From: Lachnospiraceae bacterium
GTDB taxonomy: Bacteria; Bacillota; Clostridia; Lachnospirales; Lachnospiraceae
Length of the DNA stretch: 34,807 nt
Direction: 5' to 3'
Assembly: GCA_022797375.1 (NCBI GenBank)
Contig: JAAWKM010000022.1
Coordinates: 1 to 34,807, forward strand
In this document: piece after piece, positions 13,120 through 27,849 of the stretch
Layout of the letters: every line of letters starts with the position of its first letter
Numbering within the stretch: the stretch's first letter is position 1
Translations under genes and position numbers: made by a program
The notes under the pieces: model-generated
The model's database searches: none
The model's input: only the letters and a program-made list of their open reading frames with translations
Told to the model about the DNA's origin: nothing

Positions 13120-13149
13120 TTTATTTATTGTATAAGGCTATATCCAAAA
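13120..13149 (-). repeat. Proximal copy of the 30-bp direct repeat (3' end of the XRE gene)
   Basis: Exact match to 11073..11102. Confidence 0.9.
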
Positions 13150-13547
13150 TCAAAAAGCAGCTCATTAGTATCTGTAAGTGTTATATTATGCTGCAGTGCA
13201 AATATAATAATACTGTCCCTGCTAATCCTTGCATATAGTATAGGATATCCTGTTGCCTTTAATAAATCTTGTATTTCCTCAAAAGATAACTTCAGGGTAA
13301 AGCATATAGCAAGCACTTTATCACGTGAAGGCTTTTTAGCACCTGATAAAATCTGGTATGTATAAGTCCTGTCAAGCCCTGAATTCTTAATAAGCAGCCC
13401 GCTTGAAATGCCTTTACTATTTAAAATGTTCCGGATGTATTCATGCAGTTCCATTTTAACAAGGTTATCTTCTTCTTTATCAATATAATCCCCTGGCTGT
13501 GCAACACCTTTTAAAATTTCTAATAATTCCTGTGTCTTTTTAAACAT
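13125..13547 (-). CDS. XRE/helix-turn-helix-type protein
   Basis: ISSGLLIKNSGLDRTYTYQILSGAKKPSRDKVLAICFTLKLSFEEIQDLLKATG resembles a Cro/CI HTH. Confidence 0.75.
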   Translation of the reverse strand: MFKKTQELLEILKGVAQPGDYIDKEEDNLVKMELHEYIRNILNSKGISSGLLIKNSGLDRTYTYQILSGAKKPSRDKVLAICFTLKLSFEEIQDLLKATGYPILYARISRDSIIIFALQHNITLTDTNELLFDFGYSLIQ

Positions 13548-13577: not shown

Positions 13578-13910
13578 CTACTCTCTTATAAAACATCTGT
13601 CAGATGCTTTTATCCCTTCCTCATCTGACACATATCTCTCCACTTTCATATGCAGGTCATACTTTATTCTGAGTTCTGTAATTTTTTCCATCATTGGTGA
13701 CGCATGATGCCTGTCAAGTGCCTGCTGGTTTTCCCAACAGTCAGCCAGCAATACTGTTTCTGGTTCTGCCATAGGTAAAAAATAATCATACCTCAGGTTC
13801 CCTTCTTCCTTACGTATTGCCATAGCAGTTCCGCTGCTTTCCATTTCTTCCGCAAACTTTCTTGCATTACCATTTGTTCCTGTATAATAAATATTCACAG
13901 CTATACTCAT
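13578..13910 (-). CDS. Putative quinol monooxygenase (ABM-domain/YgiN-like)
   Basis: RKEEGNLRYDYFLPMAEPETVLLADCWENQQALDRHHASPMM typical of ABM dimeric barrels; RBS GGAGGGAAAC. Confidence 0.85.
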   Translation of the reverse strand: MSIAVNIYYTGTNGNARKFAEEMESSGTAMAIRKEEGNLRYDYFLPMAEPETVLLADCWENQQALDRHHASPMMEKITELRIKYDLHMKVERYVSDEEGIKASDRCFIRE

Positions 13911-13991
13911 TCAGTTTCCCTCCAGTTTTATTTTTCTTTTTTAATAATATCACAACAGCAACATTATTAAAAGTATAATACTAATGCAGAA

Positions 13992-14401
13992 CATGTCCGT
14001 TTCATAAAATTTTTAGTTATTTTGCATTTGTGTAAAAACGGACGAAGTTTTCTACGTCCAGGCTGGACATGTAAAACCTGCTGTCTTCTGGCAAAGTGAA
14101 TAATATAACTGGAAACTGTTAATTTTATTATCCTGGGTTTATTATAAATTTACAGTGGCAGGTTTTATATATTATAGAACCGCATTTATTCAATTTATTT
14201 CCATATGGATAATACCGCAGTATCTCCTGTTTGTCTGAATAATTTAGCACACAATAAAATTTCTAGTTATAATTCCAGGTCTGCCGGAAGACAGCAGGTT
14301 CCATGTGCCCTGGAGTGGGATAAACCCGTCCTGGCACTGGAAAACCTGCGTGCGTCCGTCTGCCAGCAAAGGATAACTGGAAATTTTATGAAACGGACGT
14401 G
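13992..14401. mobile_element. MITE-like non-autonomous element, 410 bp
   Basis: 29-bp imperfect TIRs (CATGTCCGTTTCATAAAATTTTTAGTTAT / CACGTCCGTTTCATAAAATTTCCAGTTAT) flanked by an identical 10-bp TAATGCAGAA at 13982..13991 and 14402..14411; interior also inversely repeated; no credible ORF. Confidence 0.85.
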
Positions 14402-14423
14402 TAATGCAGAATGAAAATTAATT

Positions 14424-14452
14424 TTGCATAAGCCAGATAAATAATGTATAAT
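14424..14452 (+). promoter_or_regulatory. Predicted promoter of the kinase gene
   Basis: TTGCAT-17 nt-TATAAT, starting 12 bp after the right TSD. Confidence 0.6.
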
Positions 14453-14510: not shown

Positions 14511-15623
14511 ATGGAAAATAACCTGCATATACAATATATTGATGAAAAATATATAAAACTTGATTTGCTTAGCAATAACCAGGGTTTAGAAACATGGCTT
14601 GTAAAGGATAACTGCACCGGAAAATTATTTATATTAAAAGAAACCATGCCAGAACTGGCAGAAATATACAGAACCCTGCAGCCATTCCCAAATAAAAACC
14701 TGGCGGCAATATATGAAACTTTCAAATTGGATAATAAATTCATTGTTATTGAGGAATTTATAAGCGGTGACACTTTAGAAGAAATTATAAATAAAGGAAA
14801 TACCAATGTACATACATCTTTTTATATTATAAAGCAAATTTTGGAAGTCTTGATTTTCCTTCATGGCATAAATATTATCCACAGGGATATTAACCCCAGA
14901 AATATACTGGTTTCAACAGATGGTATAGTTAAACTTATTGATTTTGGAATTGCAAGAAAATATAAAGAAGGTTCTGCAAATGATACGGCAATACTTGGGA
15001 CAGCAGGCTTTGCAGCACCAGAACAATTTGGTTTCCAGCAGACAGATGCAAGGTCTGATATTTATTCACTGGGTGTACTGTTCCATCTGCTCTTATCAGG
15101 CAGTATGCCAAAGGGAAGCCAGTGCCTTGATATAGAATATAAGGAATTTATACAAAAATGTATATCACTTGACCCATCCATGCGCTACCAGAGTGCTTTA
15201 GAGGCTTATACCTCACTAGTTTCTATAACAACAGCAGACCAGGTTAACCCTGTTTACAATAAACCAGATAACAATCCTTACTGCCTGCCAGGTTTTAGAA
15301 GCAATACCCCCTGGAAAAAAACCCTTGCTATAAGTTTTTATATTATTATGTCAATTTATATATTTGCCTCGCTTAAAGAATGTTCAAAAACACCAGCTTC
15401 TTTTTTCCTTGAATTTATGGCACTGTTTTTATATATTATATTTGCATTTATAATTGTTACAGATTATGGAAACTGGACTTACAGGCTATGGCCAGTTTCA
15501 CGTTTTAATAAATCTTTAAAAATATTTATACGGATTATACTTTTTATATTTATATTCTATTATGGGGCAACTCTTGAAGAATATGTAAGATATACAATGC
15601 TTGGAATTCCCAGACCCAAATAA
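14511..15623 (+). CDS. Membrane-associated Ser/Thr protein kinase
   Basis: LFILKE (VAIK-like), IHRDINPRNILV, LIDFGIAR, GTAGFAAPEQFG and DARSDIYSLGVLFHLLL; about three C-terminal TMs. Confidence 0.88.
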   Translation: MENNLHIQYIDEKYIKLDLLSNNQGLETWLVKDNCTGKLFILKETMPELAEIYRTLQPFPNKNLAAIYETFKLDNKFIVIEEFISGDTLEEIINKGNTNVHTSFYIIKQILEVLIFLHGINIIHRDINPRNILVSTDGIVKLIDFGIARKYKEGSANDTAILGTAGFAAPEQFGFQQTDARSDIYSLGVLFHLLLSGSMPKGSQCLDIEYKEFIQKCISLDPSMRYQSALEAYTSLVSITTADQVNPVYNKPDNNPYCLPGFRSNTPWKKTLAISFYIIMSIYIFASLKECSKTPASFFLEFMALFLYIIFAFIIVTDYGNWTYRLWPVSRFNKSLKIFIRIILFIFIFYYGATLEEYVRYTMLGIPRPK

Positions 15624-22560: not shown

Positions 22561-25500
22561 TTATTTTACTATAATTTTAAAATTTAATTTTTTTGTTTTT
22601 TCATTTTTCATAGTTACTTTTACATTAATTACAACACTGCCTTTAGATTTTGTTTTAATTTTCCCAGATTTTAATACTGTTGCAATATTTTTATTTGCGG
22701 AACTGGCAGTAATTTTTTTAATACTTGCCTTATCCATTTTTTTATTAAATGGAATTTTAACTTTTTTCCCTGTCCTGGCAGTTTTCTCTACAGCAGAAAG
22801 TTTTATTGTTTTCATAATTTTTTTCTCTGCTTTTTTACTATCTGCTTTGTCCAGAAGAATATAATTCTTTCCTGCTGGCATAGTTAATGTTAATGACCCG
22901 TTTCCAGATATTTTATATGTCTTTGCATTTACCATTGTGTATTTGCCTGTATTGTTATTGTAAGCGTATATATACAGTTTTTTGCCTTTAATTAAATTAT
23001 CTTTGTCCACGGTAACTGTGCACAGCTTTTTGCCTTTACTGTCCTTAATTTTTATTTTTACATTAACCGGTTTAGCAGTTTTAATTTCTTGTATTTCCTT
23101 TATACTTCCTTTGCTAATTACAGCTTTAACTTCTTTTTTAGAAACTTTGCCATTTACTGTTAAAGATACATTAACCGGTTTATCTTTATCATTATTGTCT
23201 ACTGGTTTTTCTGTAACAGATGGCACTGCACTCTCTGAAGGCTTTGCTGTAACTTGTGGCTGCATGCTTGCCTCTGGCTGCACAGTAACTTGTGGCTGCG
23301 GGCTTGCCTCTGGCTGTAAGCTTGCCTCTGGCAACGCACTTGTTTCTGGCAGCGGGCTTTCCACTGGCTGTGCACTTGCTGTTGCTGCCGGATAATATGG
23401 GTTTAAAATAACACTTCCACCTGGTTTTGGTGAAGAGGTAATTTCTGGTGATGGCACTGGTGAAGGTTCTTCCACAATCCCGTTTTCCTTTCCACAATAA
23501 CCAAGCTGTACAAGGTCAAGGACTGCCCAGTCTTTGCTTACGGTGTCCATATAAAAACCAACAGTAATATCCTCTCCCTTATCAACAGCAAATTCCAGTT
23601 CAACCGGCATATATGCCCCTGTATTTGGTATATCCTTTCTGGCAATAACTTCACCTTGCGGGTCTTTAACATACATATAAAACTTGCCATCCATCCACTC
23701 GCTATGTGTAACACCTGTATATGCATGTGCACGCAATATATATGTGCCCTTTTCAAGCCCTGTAACTGTCTGTGAAGCATCTGCCCAGAATTTATCTGCT
23801 GACCAGAATGCAAGTGCATATATTCCGTCATATCTGCTTGCTGCACTTCTCTCCTGCACTACTACGCCATTCGTACCTTCCTGGCATGTAAATTTCCATC
23901 CATCCGAAGAATTTTCAAAACTTGGATTTGTTATTTTGCCTGTATCTTCTGGCATAACAATAATGCCAGCATCACATACCGTATCTTTTTCAATTTCAAG
24001 CTGTAAATCCCTGCCAATACCGCCAGCAGCGGATATTGATAATTTTACTGTACCTGCTGTTACATTCTCAAATTTAAAACTGCCTGTTTCATCTGTAACA
24101 GTTTTCATGCCGCCATACATGCCTATAGCAACATTTATACCAGCAAGTGGTGCTTTATCCTTGTCTGTAACTTTTCCAGTTATAGTTCCTGTATTATCTT
24201 CCAGTACAACAGAAAGTTCTTTTTCTTCATATACAGAAAGGCTGCACTCTCTTTCTTCAGTTGCATAACTGTTCTTAACATAAGATATTTTGTAAGTCCT
24301 GCCTGCTTCCAGGTCTAATGTGTAAAAACCGTCCGCACCTGTTTTTACATTTATTGTATCTGTCCCGTCTGATGCAGATACCCTTGCTCCTTCTATTGGC
24401 ATTTTGCTGCTTGTTGTTATCGTCCCTGAAACTGTGCCCGAAGTTTTTTGTATTATTATATCCTGCCCTGACGTGGCTTGCAGCTCTATAACCTGTGGCT
24501 GCTCCTGTTTATAGCCTGCTGCCTTTACAGTAATACTGTAACTGCCTTTTGGAATATTTTCAAAAACCCAGTTTCCTGTTACATCTGTATAAATTGAAAA
24601 TACATCCCCGCTCTTTGTATTGCAGGCTGTTACCAGTGCCCCTGCCACTGGAAATGCACTTTCCCTTGTGTCTGTTTCCTTATTATAAATTACCCTGCCG
24701 TTTAAAGAAACTCCTGTGGCTGTTATTATGGCAGGCTCTGATGATACGTTGCCTTTGCCTATTGTAATGCTGCCTGGATTATCTATACTACAGTCCATTC
24801 CTTCAATATCTGCACTTATAGTATAATCCCCTGCTGGCACTTCCTTACGGAATTCACCATATCTGCCTGTCTTTATAGTAACTGCCTGGCCTGCTTTTGT
24901 ATTATCTGTTAATAATAATTTTGCTGTAACACCAGAAACCCCTTTACCGTCACTGCTAATAATTTTCCCGTCAAGTATTCCGGTTTCTGCAAGGCTTCCT
25001 TCCCTGTTATAGCGGTATGCATCTGCCACTGGAAGCAGTTTGTGCCCAAAGTCAAATAAAGTGGTATTTGAGATAACATTTACATCTGCTGTATCACTTT
25101 CTTCTAACATTGCCCATCCTACATTTTCCTGCTGTACCATTACCGGGTCCCAGTATAAATCACCTATACAGCGGCCATCTTTTACACTTTTGACACCATT
25201 TAAAACTTCATACATAAATTCACGCTGGTTATCAGGTGAGCTTCCCCCATCTGCCTGGTTTCCATTTGCATCTTTGCCCATAAAAGGATATGGCCCGTTA
25301 TGGTATAACTGCCCTGTATCTTTTCCGTTTGCAAGCAAATCATTAAAACATATAGCTGTTTCCATCAGCATAATATCTTTATCGTACCTGTCTACAAGCC
25401 CGTTACAGAAATCTACAATCTGGCCAGGCTCCATATTTGTCCAGAATGGATAATATGACGGGCCTATAATATCATAATCTACATTATATTCCTCACATTT

Positions 25501-27819
25501 ATCAAAAAAACCATTATATTTTGATGTATCACCTGCCCCGTCAAGATGTAAAATAATCCCGCATTCTTTACCGTATTCCTCCTCTGCTGCCCTTACTGCC
25601 TTTGCTGCAGAATTTAAAAACCTTGCAAGGTATGGCCACCTGTCATTTGCAGCTTTGCCAAGAGGATAGAAAAGACCATCCTGCATTTCATTGCCAAATG
25701 ATATATATTCTGGGAAAGTATCCTGCGCTGCCATTGCGTCAAGAACTTCTGCTGTATATTCTCCTGTAAGTTCTTCGAGTTTATTAACAGCTTCTTCCTC
25801 ATTCATGCCTTTTATCTTTTCCTGCCATTCCGATGGTATAATCTGTGTTGCCGCATTGCTCCAGTAATCACTGAAATGGAGTGAAAGCTGTATTCTCATT
25901 CCTTTTTCTTTAGCACGTTTTGCCTGGCTTAATATATCCTCCAGTGTCTCATAACCTTCGGGGCAGTAATACCCATTTTCACCACGTCCCTTTCCAGGAT
26001 TATTATAAAGACGCAGGCGTGCTATATTATATCCTGTATCTGCAAGTATCTGGAATACATCACCCTCCATACCTGCTTCATCATAAAATTTTGCACCCTC
26101 ATCTTCAAGCCATGTAATCATTGACATATCGCCACCCTGGTTAATGCTGTACTGTCTGTCCTGGTTTTTTTCCCTTTGTAACTGTATTGTGTCAAGCTTC
26201 AGCCTGTTACCTGCATATGCATCTGTATATACACCTACCGTTGCTTTGCCATCTTCACCTACATAAATACCCCTGGCTGTAATAAGAGTCCATTCATTTT
26301 CACTCTTTTTAACACCGCGCCTTGGAATAGCAGTAATGCTCTTAGACTGTCCAGTCCCGTTGCCATACAGATAGCATATTTTCTGGTCTTTGCTGCTCTC
26401 TCCCTTTGTCTTGTTAGCATATGCTGTAAGGTAATACCATCCCTCTTCTAAGCCTGTAACTTCCTGTGAAATCTCCGCTTTATAGTCTGAAGTGCCTGTA
26501 ATATCCAGATATTTAACACCTGTATGTGCACCATTCTCTTTTAATTCTATTATACCTGTGCTATCCATTGTCCATGATAATAAACTGCCATCCTCATCTG
26601 TCCTTTCAAAAGAGCTGTTATCTGGCTTAATATCTGTATCATTATATTCCTGTACTAATTCCAGTGAACAGTCATCAAAAATTGCCCATACATCTGCTGC
26701 TGATTTTACATGAATTCCAACAACTGCCTTTCCATCAGTACCAGCTTTAAATTCTAATTTATTTGCCTGCCAGTTCCAGCCAGAAGCAATATCCTTTTTT
26801 ACCTGTTCCTGGCTGTCTGAAGAAGCATAAATAAAACATTCTTCTGGTGCTCCTGTCTGTGCATAAACTGTAAAGACATATTTTCTGCCAGGAACAAGCC
26901 CTGTAACATTCTGGTAAATACTGGTGTCTGTTTCAACACCGCCTGTCTGCAAAGTATATTCCCCGTCCCTGGCATCTGCCCTTTTCATTGAATACACAGG
27001 TGTTCCTTCTGTTTCCCAGCCTGCTGGTATATATGTATCAGGAAATTCTTCAAAAGAACCATTTATAAAACTGCCCTTCCCTGTTTCATCTGGTTCTGGA
27101 TTTGGATTTTCCTCTCCGTCCCCGTCCCCAGTATCTGTATCTCCTGTATTTATAAGAGAAAACTTGTCAAGCCAGAGGGTTTTGCCTGCGTTCTCCCCTC
27201 CTTCTGCCTCTGCACCTATTATAATACTGCCACCTGTTACTTCTATATCACTAACTTTAATTTCCTGCCAGCTATTCCAATTAGTTTCAATTGAACCCTC
27301 TTTGTTAAACATACTGCTTTTTTCATTATCCTGGCTGCCACTATAAGCATATATTTTGCCATATGTTTCTTTATCTCCATATATCCAGGCTGAAAGTTCA
27401 TACTTCCCGTCTGGCACATTGTTTATTTCCTGGTACACATTTCCAATATATTTATTAGCATCATTTGTACTTTCATAACCTGCATTAAATTCTAATACTA
27501 CGCCTCCATCACATCCTGTCTGTGTTTCTGTTATCCAATGGTAATGTGCTGCCTTTCCTGAACCATTAGCATCTTTACTGCCGTAATCTGTAGTATTATC
27601 ACTAATTATCCATCCATCTATGCCATTTCCCCAGTTATTACTAATTTCAAACGACGGATTAACAACCAGGTTTGTTATACTTCCAGTGCCATCTCCTTCT
27701 TCTGCCGCCAATGCATATACTGGCACTATCTCCGTAACTGCCAGGGCCGCAGCAAGCATTATCCCTAAACTGCGGCGCAGCAAATAACATGGCTTAATAT
27801 GTTTTCCTAATACCCCCAT
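22561..27819 (-). CDS. Multidomain secreted GH53 endo-beta-1,4-galactanase
   Basis: GH53 core QGGDMSMITWLEDEGAKFYD...IARLRLYNNPG...LHFSDYWSNA, YISFGNEM (acid/base) and LMETAICF (nucleophile); several CBM-like domains, CarboxypepD_reg-like repeats, P/S/E/Q linker, Lys-rich C-terminus. Start at MGVLGK (27819) with RBS AAGGGAGATTAT. Confidence 0.92.
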   Translation of the reverse strand: MGVLGKHIKPCYLLRRSLGIMLAAALAVTEIVPVYALAAEEGDGTGSITNLVVNPSFEISNNWGNGIDGWIISDNTTDYGSKDANGSGKAAHYHWITETQTGCDGGVVLEFNAGYESTNDANKYIGNVYQEINNVPDGKYELSAWIYGDKETYGKIYAYSGSQDNEKSSMFNKEGSIETNWNSWQEIKVSDIEVTGGSIIIGAEAEGGENAGKTLWLDKFSLINTGDTDTGDGDGEENPNPEPDETGKGSFINGSFEEFPDTYIPAGWETEGTPVYSMKRADARDGEYTLQTGGVETDTSIYQNVTGLVPGRKYVFTVYAQTGAPEECFIYASSDSQEQVKKDIASGWNWQANKLEFKAGTDGKAVVGIHVKSAADVWAIFDDCSLELVQEYNDTDIKPDNSSFERTDEDGSLLSWTMDSTGIIELKENGAHTGVKYLDITGTSDYKAEISQEVTGLEEGWYYLTAYANKTKGESSKDQKICYLYGNGTGQSKSITAIPRRGVKKSENEWTLITARGIYVGEDGKATVGVYTDAYAGNRLKLDTIQLQREKNQDRQYSINQGGDMSMITWLEDEGAKFYDEAGMEGDVFQILADTGYNIARLRLYNNPGKGRGENGYYCPEGYETLEDILSQAKRAKEKGMRIQLSLHFSDYWSNAATQIIPSEWQEKIKGMNEEEAVNKLEELTGEYTAEVLDAMAAQDTFPEYISFGNEMQDGLFYPLGKAANDRWPYLARFLNSAAKAVRAAEEEYGKECGIILHLDGAGDTSKYNGFFDKCEEYNVDYDIIGPSYYPFWTNMEPGQIVDFCNGLVDRYDKDIMLMETAICFNDLLANGKDTGQLYHNGPYPFMGKDANGNQADGGSSPDNQREFMYEVLNGVKSVKDGRCIGDLYWDPVMVQQENVGWAMLEESDTADVNVISNTTLFDFGHKLLPVADAYRYNREGSLAETGILDGKIISSDGKGVSGVTAKLLLTDNTKAGQAVTIKTGRYGEFRKEVPAGDYTISADIEGMDCSIDNPGSITIGKGNVSSEPAIITATGVSLNGRVIYNKETDTRESAFPVAGALVTACNTKSGDVFSIYTDVTGNWVFENIPKGSYSITVKAAGYKQEQPQVIELQATSGQDIIIQKTSGTVSGTITTSSKMPIEGARVSASDGTDTINVKTGADGFYTLDLEAGRTYKISYVKNSYATEERECSLSVYEEKELSVVLEDNTGTITGKVTDKDKAPLAGINVAIGMYGGMKTVTDETGSFKFENVTAGTVKLSISAAGGIGRDLQLEIEKDTVCDAGIIVMPEDTGKITNPSFENSSDGWKFTCQEGTNGVVVQERSAASRYDGIYALAFWSADKFWADASQTVTGLEKGTYILRAHAYTGVTHSEWMDGKFYMYVKDPQGEVIARKDIPNTGAYMPVELEFAVDKGEDITVGFYMDTVSKDWAVLDLVQLGYCGKENGIVEEPSPVPSPEITSSPKPGGSVILNPYYPAATASAQPVESPLPETSALPEASLQPEASPQPQVTVQPEASMQPQVTAKPSESAVPSVTEKPVDNNDKDKPVNVSLTVNGKVSKKEVKAVISKGSIKEIQEIKTAKPVNVKIKIKDSKGKKLCTVTVDKDNLIKGKKLYIYAYNNNTGKYTMVNAKTYKISGNGSLTLTMPAGKNYILLDKADSKKAEKKIMKTIKLSAVEKTARTGKKVKIPFNKKMDKASIKKITASSANKNIATVLKSGKIKTKSKGSVVINVKVTMKNEKTKKLNFKIIVK

Positions 27820-27849
27820 ATAATCTCCCTTCTGCCTGTTTACAGGCAA

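Follow-up and report, generated by a model that had tools for sequence, protein, structure and literature searches.

The element and its locus

The stretch of DNA considered here, referred to as the window, comprises 34,807 nucleotides of contig JAAWKM010000022.1 from a Lachnospiraceae bacterium with a 3.94-Mb genome (assembly GCA_022797375.1). It contains a short mobile element that sits between two divergent genes, a monooxygenase gene on the minus strand and a kinase gene on the plus strand (Table 1). In the following, labels starting with L denote stretches that hold copies of the element or related elements, while C stands for contigs and G for genomes. The element is 410 bp long, with termini that read CATGTCCGTTTCATAAAATTTTTAGTTAT and the reverse complement of CACGTCCGTTTCATAAAATTTCCAGTTAT and differ from each other at 3 of 29 positions. 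The original prediction, made from the DNA alone, had described a miniature inverted-repeat transposable element (MITE) with 29-bp terminal inverted repeats (TIRs), a perfect 10-bp target-site duplication (TSD) and no open reading frame (ORF) for a transposase. Coordinates and sequences are exactly as it gave them, and there is no ORF of 80 or more aa wholly within the element. The element is a real MITE: it is short, has TIRs and a TSD but no transposase gene, is dispersed in multiple copies with differing TSDs, and has its TIRs in common with elements of the autonomous type, which are degenerate in the same genome and have an open frame in another.

Table 1. Features of the window at and around the element.
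Feature	Position	Strand	Basis
HTH protein, encoded right beside the kinase gene and divergently from it in G007 and G013	13125..13547	-	locus comparison
ABM-domain (antibiotic biosynthesis monooxygenase family) protein	13578..13910	-	PF03992, 5.1e-12
Monooxygenase promoter-like site TTTTAA-17-TATTAT, 8/12, extended -10 TG	13944..13972	-	consensus match only
Left 10-bp TSD TAATGCAGAA	13982..13991		sequence inspection; 10-bp TSDs also in other copies and in plasmid ISAs1-family elements
410-bp non-autonomous MITE, ISAs1-derived, no transposase ORF	13992..14401	+	ORF list, copies, alignment to L027
Left TIR, 29 bp	13992..14020	+	sequence
Inner module, present in most other copies	14075..14300		own inverted repeat (arms 14075-14115 and 14260-14300, 76% complementary)
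Right TIR, 29 bp, 26/29 identical to left	14373..14401	-	sequence
Right 10-bp TSD TAATGCAGAA	14402..14411		sequence inspection
Kinase promoter-like site TTTGCA-18-TATAAT, 10/12	14423..14452	+	consensus match only
Protein kinase	14511..15623	+	PF00069, 2.1e-32

Copies in the host genome

Taken together with its TSDs (430 bp), the element gives 149 BLAST matches in its own genome. The TIR core CACGTCCGTTTCATAAAA, searched with up to 3 mismatches, is found 127 + 132 times (259), while the reversed control gives 4 + 7 matches (11); with up to 2 mismatches it occurs 233 times in the host as opposed to 0-4 times in 24 congeners. The host carries on the order of 100-200 elements, many of which are truncated or cut by a contig end; such numbers greatly exceed what chance would give. 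TSDs of 9-10 bp flank 7 of the 15 complete TIR pairs (the window copy, L006, L027, L032, L129, L142 and L147) but none of 210 mispaired flanks; they are 9 bp long in two copies and 10 bp long otherwise. Other copies with different 10-bp TSDs, which the original prediction had suggested looking for, therefore exist, with GGGATTATTT in L006, CATTCTCTGC in L027 and TAAAAAACCA in L142. At positions 1279-1979 of L006, one copy is separated from the end of another by exactly 10 bp, and these 10 bp are its TSD GGGATTATTT.

Full-length copies measure about 640-694 bp and are nearly all palindrome, with L027 (688 bp) predicted to form a single long hairpin (-235 kcal/mol as computed by the script). Aligned with L027, the window copy covers positions ~1-52, 251-460 and 600-688, so that its left arm is short of about 200 bp and its right arm of 140 bp; it is an internally deleted version of a near-palindrome of about 690 bp. 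Many short copies of 79-441 bp combine this end type with a second one, CACGTCCGTTTCATAAAAATCCCCATGCCGTGC. In L027, L006, L014, L030, L114, L125 and L023, the arms carry swappable variants of a sub-hairpin (GCCCCTGTGT... or ATCTGAAAAAACCAGAT...), and in full-length copies these can be matched or mismatched between the two arms. This suggests homogenisation of the arms rather than selected RNA pairing.

The strong folding raises the question whether the segment could be conserved intergenic DNA or a structured RNA and not mobile at all. As single-stranded DNA the window copy does fold far more strongly than its shuffles (z -9.6), and the full-length copies form one long hairpin. A conserved structured RNA was nevertheless rejected, as covariation adds nothing to the consensus fold (term +1.87) and the arm variants move as blocks, which points to arm exchange. 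The original prediction had named the lack of other copies, together with retention of the segment by relatives as conserved intergenic DNA, as the outcome that would speak against it; element DNA has no match in 27 congeners or in 33 other relatives. With multiple copies that have distinct TSDs and with element-free loci in relatives, the reading as immobile DNA or RNA is refuted, and its probability is practically nil.

The locus itself was also compared with its counterparts. In G007 and G013, the kinase orthologue is divergent from the HTH gene, across gaps of 118 and 185 bp, respectively, and no element is present. The empty site that the original prediction hoped for is found only in part: the two relatives are free of the element, but the monooxygenase gene is absent from their HTH-kinase locus too, which leaves no empty site that is exact to the base.

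Relationship to the ISAs1 family

The original prediction could not assign a transposase family from the ends of the element. Elements that share its TIRs, together with the length of the TSD, identify it as ISAs1. The second end type of the short copies, CACGTCCGTTTCATAAAAATCCCCATGCCGTGC, is the 5' end of an ISAs1-like element, and host contig C42 holds a near-complete copy of about 1.2 kb in which the transposase is broken and the 3' end carries the shared TIR. On C7 and C38, the TIR is joined to the 5' ends of ISAs1 transposases. These degenerate elements, along with an open-frame ISAs1 element in G257, are the autonomous-type relatives that had been proposed as a check. The G257 element (C61:120-1333) is bounded by the TIR, has a length of 1214 bp and contains an open frame of 395 codons, the product of which matches NF033564 with an E-value of 9.1e-80 and 268 bits (cut-off 70, passed) and has the Pfam domains DDE_Tnp_1 and DDE_Tnp_1_assoc. 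The transposase of the TIR-sharing elements therefore belongs to ISAs1 by NF033564, which took the place of PF01609, the first guess at the family. G044 holds a further relative, an ISAs1 element of 1275 bp whose TIR is related. A remnant of 549 bp in G006 is bounded by the TIR and has a 9-10-bp TSD, and TIR-bounded remnants of 287 and 93 bp are present in Lachnoclostridium sp. UBA7097 and UBA7122. In G041, G007, G017 and G018, the search for TIR pairs left the ends of ISAs1 elements undefined.

The 10-bp TSD agrees with the length typical of the family, as in ISAs1, ISVa13, ISPa60 and ISAeme2-like elements, and plasmid-borne ISAs1-family elements have an exact 10-bp TSD in 5 of 5 cases with definable ends. 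The complete relatives of about 1.2 kb encode ISAs1 transposases, unlike the window copy, and the TIR is CACGTCCGTTTCATAAA (the CACGTYCG clade) as opposed to the proteobacterial CAGGGCGAGATCGC type. The element is a non-autonomous ISAs1 derivative.

About 20 contigs of the host (G000) stop some 98 bp into an element that shares an identical 5' end with the one on C42 (for example L035, L036, L126, L130, L132, L138, L146 and L247). This implies that the assembly lacks an element present in multiple copies, possibly the autonomous one.

Insertion upstream of promoters

Promoters of the sigma70 type were called outward from the TIR end by consensus, with a match of at least 9/12 and a spacer of 16-18 bp. 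Among 123 distinct host ends, the -35 element starts at +18 to +21 outside the TIR in 67, most frequently at +19 (25 ends) and +20 (35 ends), while other 4-bp windows contain 0-6 starts. An outward promoter within +18 to +23 is found at 53.7% of the ends but at just 1.8% of random genome positions. As an element inserted upstream of one promoter has that promoter at just one of its two ends, full targeting would be expected to yield about half of the ends. The same register emerges when the flanks of the 123 ends are aligned on the TIR end: T is present at +20 in 92 and at +21 in 74, the starts of TATAAT-like hexamers peak at +42/+43, and the TG of an extended -10 element lies at +39 to +41 in 61 ends, compared with 15-27 elsewhere.

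Two explanations of this pattern do without targeting. Insertion might be untargeted, with selection purging the copies in genes and retaining those upstream of promoters. Most ends are indeed intergenic and adjoin the 5' ends of genes, as selection would also yield; the genes that flank intact ends point away in 52 cases and toward the element in 12. Control points, however, show no such preference for the 5' sides of genes (601:764 for intergenic points), and selection cannot yield a register of ±1 bp, since positions +24 to +60 would be equally tolerable and yet contain almost no -35 starts. This makes selection a very improbable cause. The fixed spacing could also mean that the promoter belongs to the mobile unit and that the true end of the element lies farther out. 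Here, the TSDs abut the TIRs, and the flanks differ at every site except for the promoter hexamers; as both flanks and TSDs are distinct, this explanation is refuted and retains next to no probability.

The register recurs outside the host. In a search of 392 genomes of the order for the TIR pattern, 11 were positive, with one hit for the reversed control. For non-host ends from 13 genomes of several families, 16 of 53 have a promoter of at least 9/12 at +18 to +21, while other windows mostly have none and at most 4. Examples are TTGACT/TATAAT at +20 in G044, TTGACA/TATAAT at +19 in G083, TTGACA/TATCAT at +20 in G308 and TTGACA/TAAGAT at +20 in G006. In G018, the hpf promoter has its -35 element 19 bp downstream of an element end, and the orthologous hpf promoter in the genome of the window is uninterrupted and thus provides an orthologous empty site for the G018 copy.

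At the locus in the window, the monooxygenase-side site has its -35 element at +20 and its -10 element at +43 from the left TIR end, which is exactly the register of the family, and the kinase-side site has them at +22 and +46 from the right TIR end. Either of the flanking promoters could have been the target of this insertion.

Taken together, this ISAs1 clade very probably targets sites upstream of promoters, with a register that is fixed to about ±1 bp. The best explanation as a whole, held with high confidence, is an ISAs1-derived MITE moved in trans, from a clade that inserts in a fixed register upstream of promoters. Family, TSD, copy number, the fixed register and its recurrence in other genomes can be read from the sequences, while mobilisation by an ISAs1 transposase in trans is inferred.

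Several points weigh against this explanation. The promoters rest on consensus matches, not on mapped transcription starts. At the cut-off of 9/12, a promoter is present at one end in only 5 of the 7 TSD-bearing copies; L147 reaches 8/12 and L027 has none. In the window, the right-hand promoter (kinase) departs from the modal register by 2-3 bp, and the left-hand promoter (monooxygenase) scores just 8/12. The host assembly contains 17 ISAs1 matches but no intact gene with this TIR. Lastly, no clear promoter register is seen for ISAs1 elements that have other TIRs, be it on plasmids, in G030 or in E. coli: the sequences around the G030 copies are without promoter matches, E. coli H52 is inside bcsR, and of the plasmid elements only L276 shows a TATAAT, at +42. 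The trait therefore seems confined to the clade and not family-wide.

The element in L276, which is ISPa60-like and located on a Citrobacter plasmid, has this hexamer beyond its right end together with a poor -35 element; it is a single case and not significant. L191 (G005) holds an ISAs1 element with a different TIR, CAGGACAAACGCATGAAT, an exact 10-bp TSD and TATCAT at +42 on one side, from which the promoter habit may reach beyond the CACGTYCG clade.

Copies with and without TSDs differ in their surroundings. While TSD-bearing copies have at most one in-register promoter of at least 9/12, TSD-less copies usually have promoters in or near the register at both ends, of this quality in L014, L023, L030, L114, L133 and L151; L088/L156 in G018 show the same tendency. 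Such copies may have arisen when two elements inserted at a pair of divergent promoters, one upstream of each, and then recombined.

A model of target choice

In the proposed model, an ISAs1-type transposase would recognise the CAYGTYCGTTTCATAAA terminal repeats, move the miniature element in trans and make a staggered cut of 10 bp. Insertion would take place at a set position upstream of sigma70/sigmaA promoters, with the -35 element starting 19-20 bp outside the element end and the TSD covering roughly -55 to -46 relative to the transcription start. This is the region of the promoter where alphaCTD and UP elements sit. Most simply, the complex of transposase and element would dock on the promoter-bound holoenzyme and cut the DNA just upstream. 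The core promoter would be kept intact and everything farther upstream be swapped for the element, making this a well tolerated landing place.

The register could come about in two ways. The transposase might itself read a DNA motif (TTG about 20 bp and TATAAT about 43 bp away) or the shape of promoter DNA, with no part for RNA polymerase. The -35 and -10 elements are the sole conserved positions of the flanks, and the tests so far fit motif reading and protein recruitment alike. The motif would, however, be bipartite, 20-48 bp from the cut, with a spacer of 16-18 bp and an extended -10 element, which is exactly the target of the holoenzyme, and the precedents for promoter targeting are explained by contact with RNA polymerase, although this is a proposal there too (PMC3942029). 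Direct reading is therefore a possible but less favoured mechanism, and contact with the promoter-bound RNA polymerase holoenzyme is slightly preferred as the source of the register.

Comparison with other mobile elements

These precedents come from two lineages of the Mutator superfamily. Guerillot et al. (2014) described how ISLre2/TnGBS and the ISKra4 lineage, with repeats of 8-9 bp, insert upstream of sigmaA promoters, in the case of TnGBS and related insertion sequences (ISs) at 15-17 bp from the -35 element, with contact to the RNA polymerase complex proposed; they termed this a unique specificity of the two lineages (PMC3942029). Like TnGBS/ISLre2 (p-MULT 3) and the ISKra4 lineage (p-MULT 4), the present elements integrate at a short and constant distance upstream of a sigmaA -35 element and have near-symmetric TIRs accompanied by promoters on either side. 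In contrast to the Mutator transposase, direct repeats of 8-9 bp and distance of 15-17 bp in that group, they have an ISAs1 transposase with DDE_Tnp_1-type Pfam domains only, a TSD of 10 bp (9 bp in two copies) and a distance of about 19-20 bp. They act like the group but fall outside it. Yeast Ty3 is alike in outline, in that it inserts at a specific position beside transcription start complexes, an analogy already drawn for the Mutator lineages (PMC3942029); as Ty3 is a retroelement that uses Pol III promoters, this is no more than an analogy.

Among bacterial MITEs, MITEAba12 (PMC6382973) and Chunjie, QMITE, ERIC and Correia elements (PMC10969869) are likewise short, mostly intergenic elements with TIRs, TSDs and size variants but no transposase, and a co-resident IS is thought to move them in trans. 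The elements described here differ from them in their ISAs1 parent, the near-palindromic full-length form of about 690 bp and the fixed promoter register. ISAs1 as a whole is over-represented between convergent genes (PMC9208149), promoter-register targeting is not clearly seen in its other subgroups, and no report of promoter targeting by ISAs1 was found in the open-access literature.

That promoters are targeted in a fixed register by another transposase family as well suggests that a “safe harbour” sparing both genes and core promoters has evolved convergently. On balance, the ISAs1 clade of this order may well have evolved polymerase-guided insertion independently of the Mutator-type ISLre2/ISKra4 elements, with more than 100 miniature derivatives in one species having replaced the upstream regions of promoters. 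Targeting by ISAs1 offers a second system for studying how a transposase senses a promoter. Copies upstream of promoters, on the order of a hundred, represent a natural experiment in regulatory rewiring, and element ends could be used to mark promoters in uncultured genomes.

Elsewhere in the window, positions 22561-27849 are occupied by a very large ORF whose product looks secreted and, by eye, similar to a GH53-type galactanase; it lies near genes resembling those of sugar ABC transporters.
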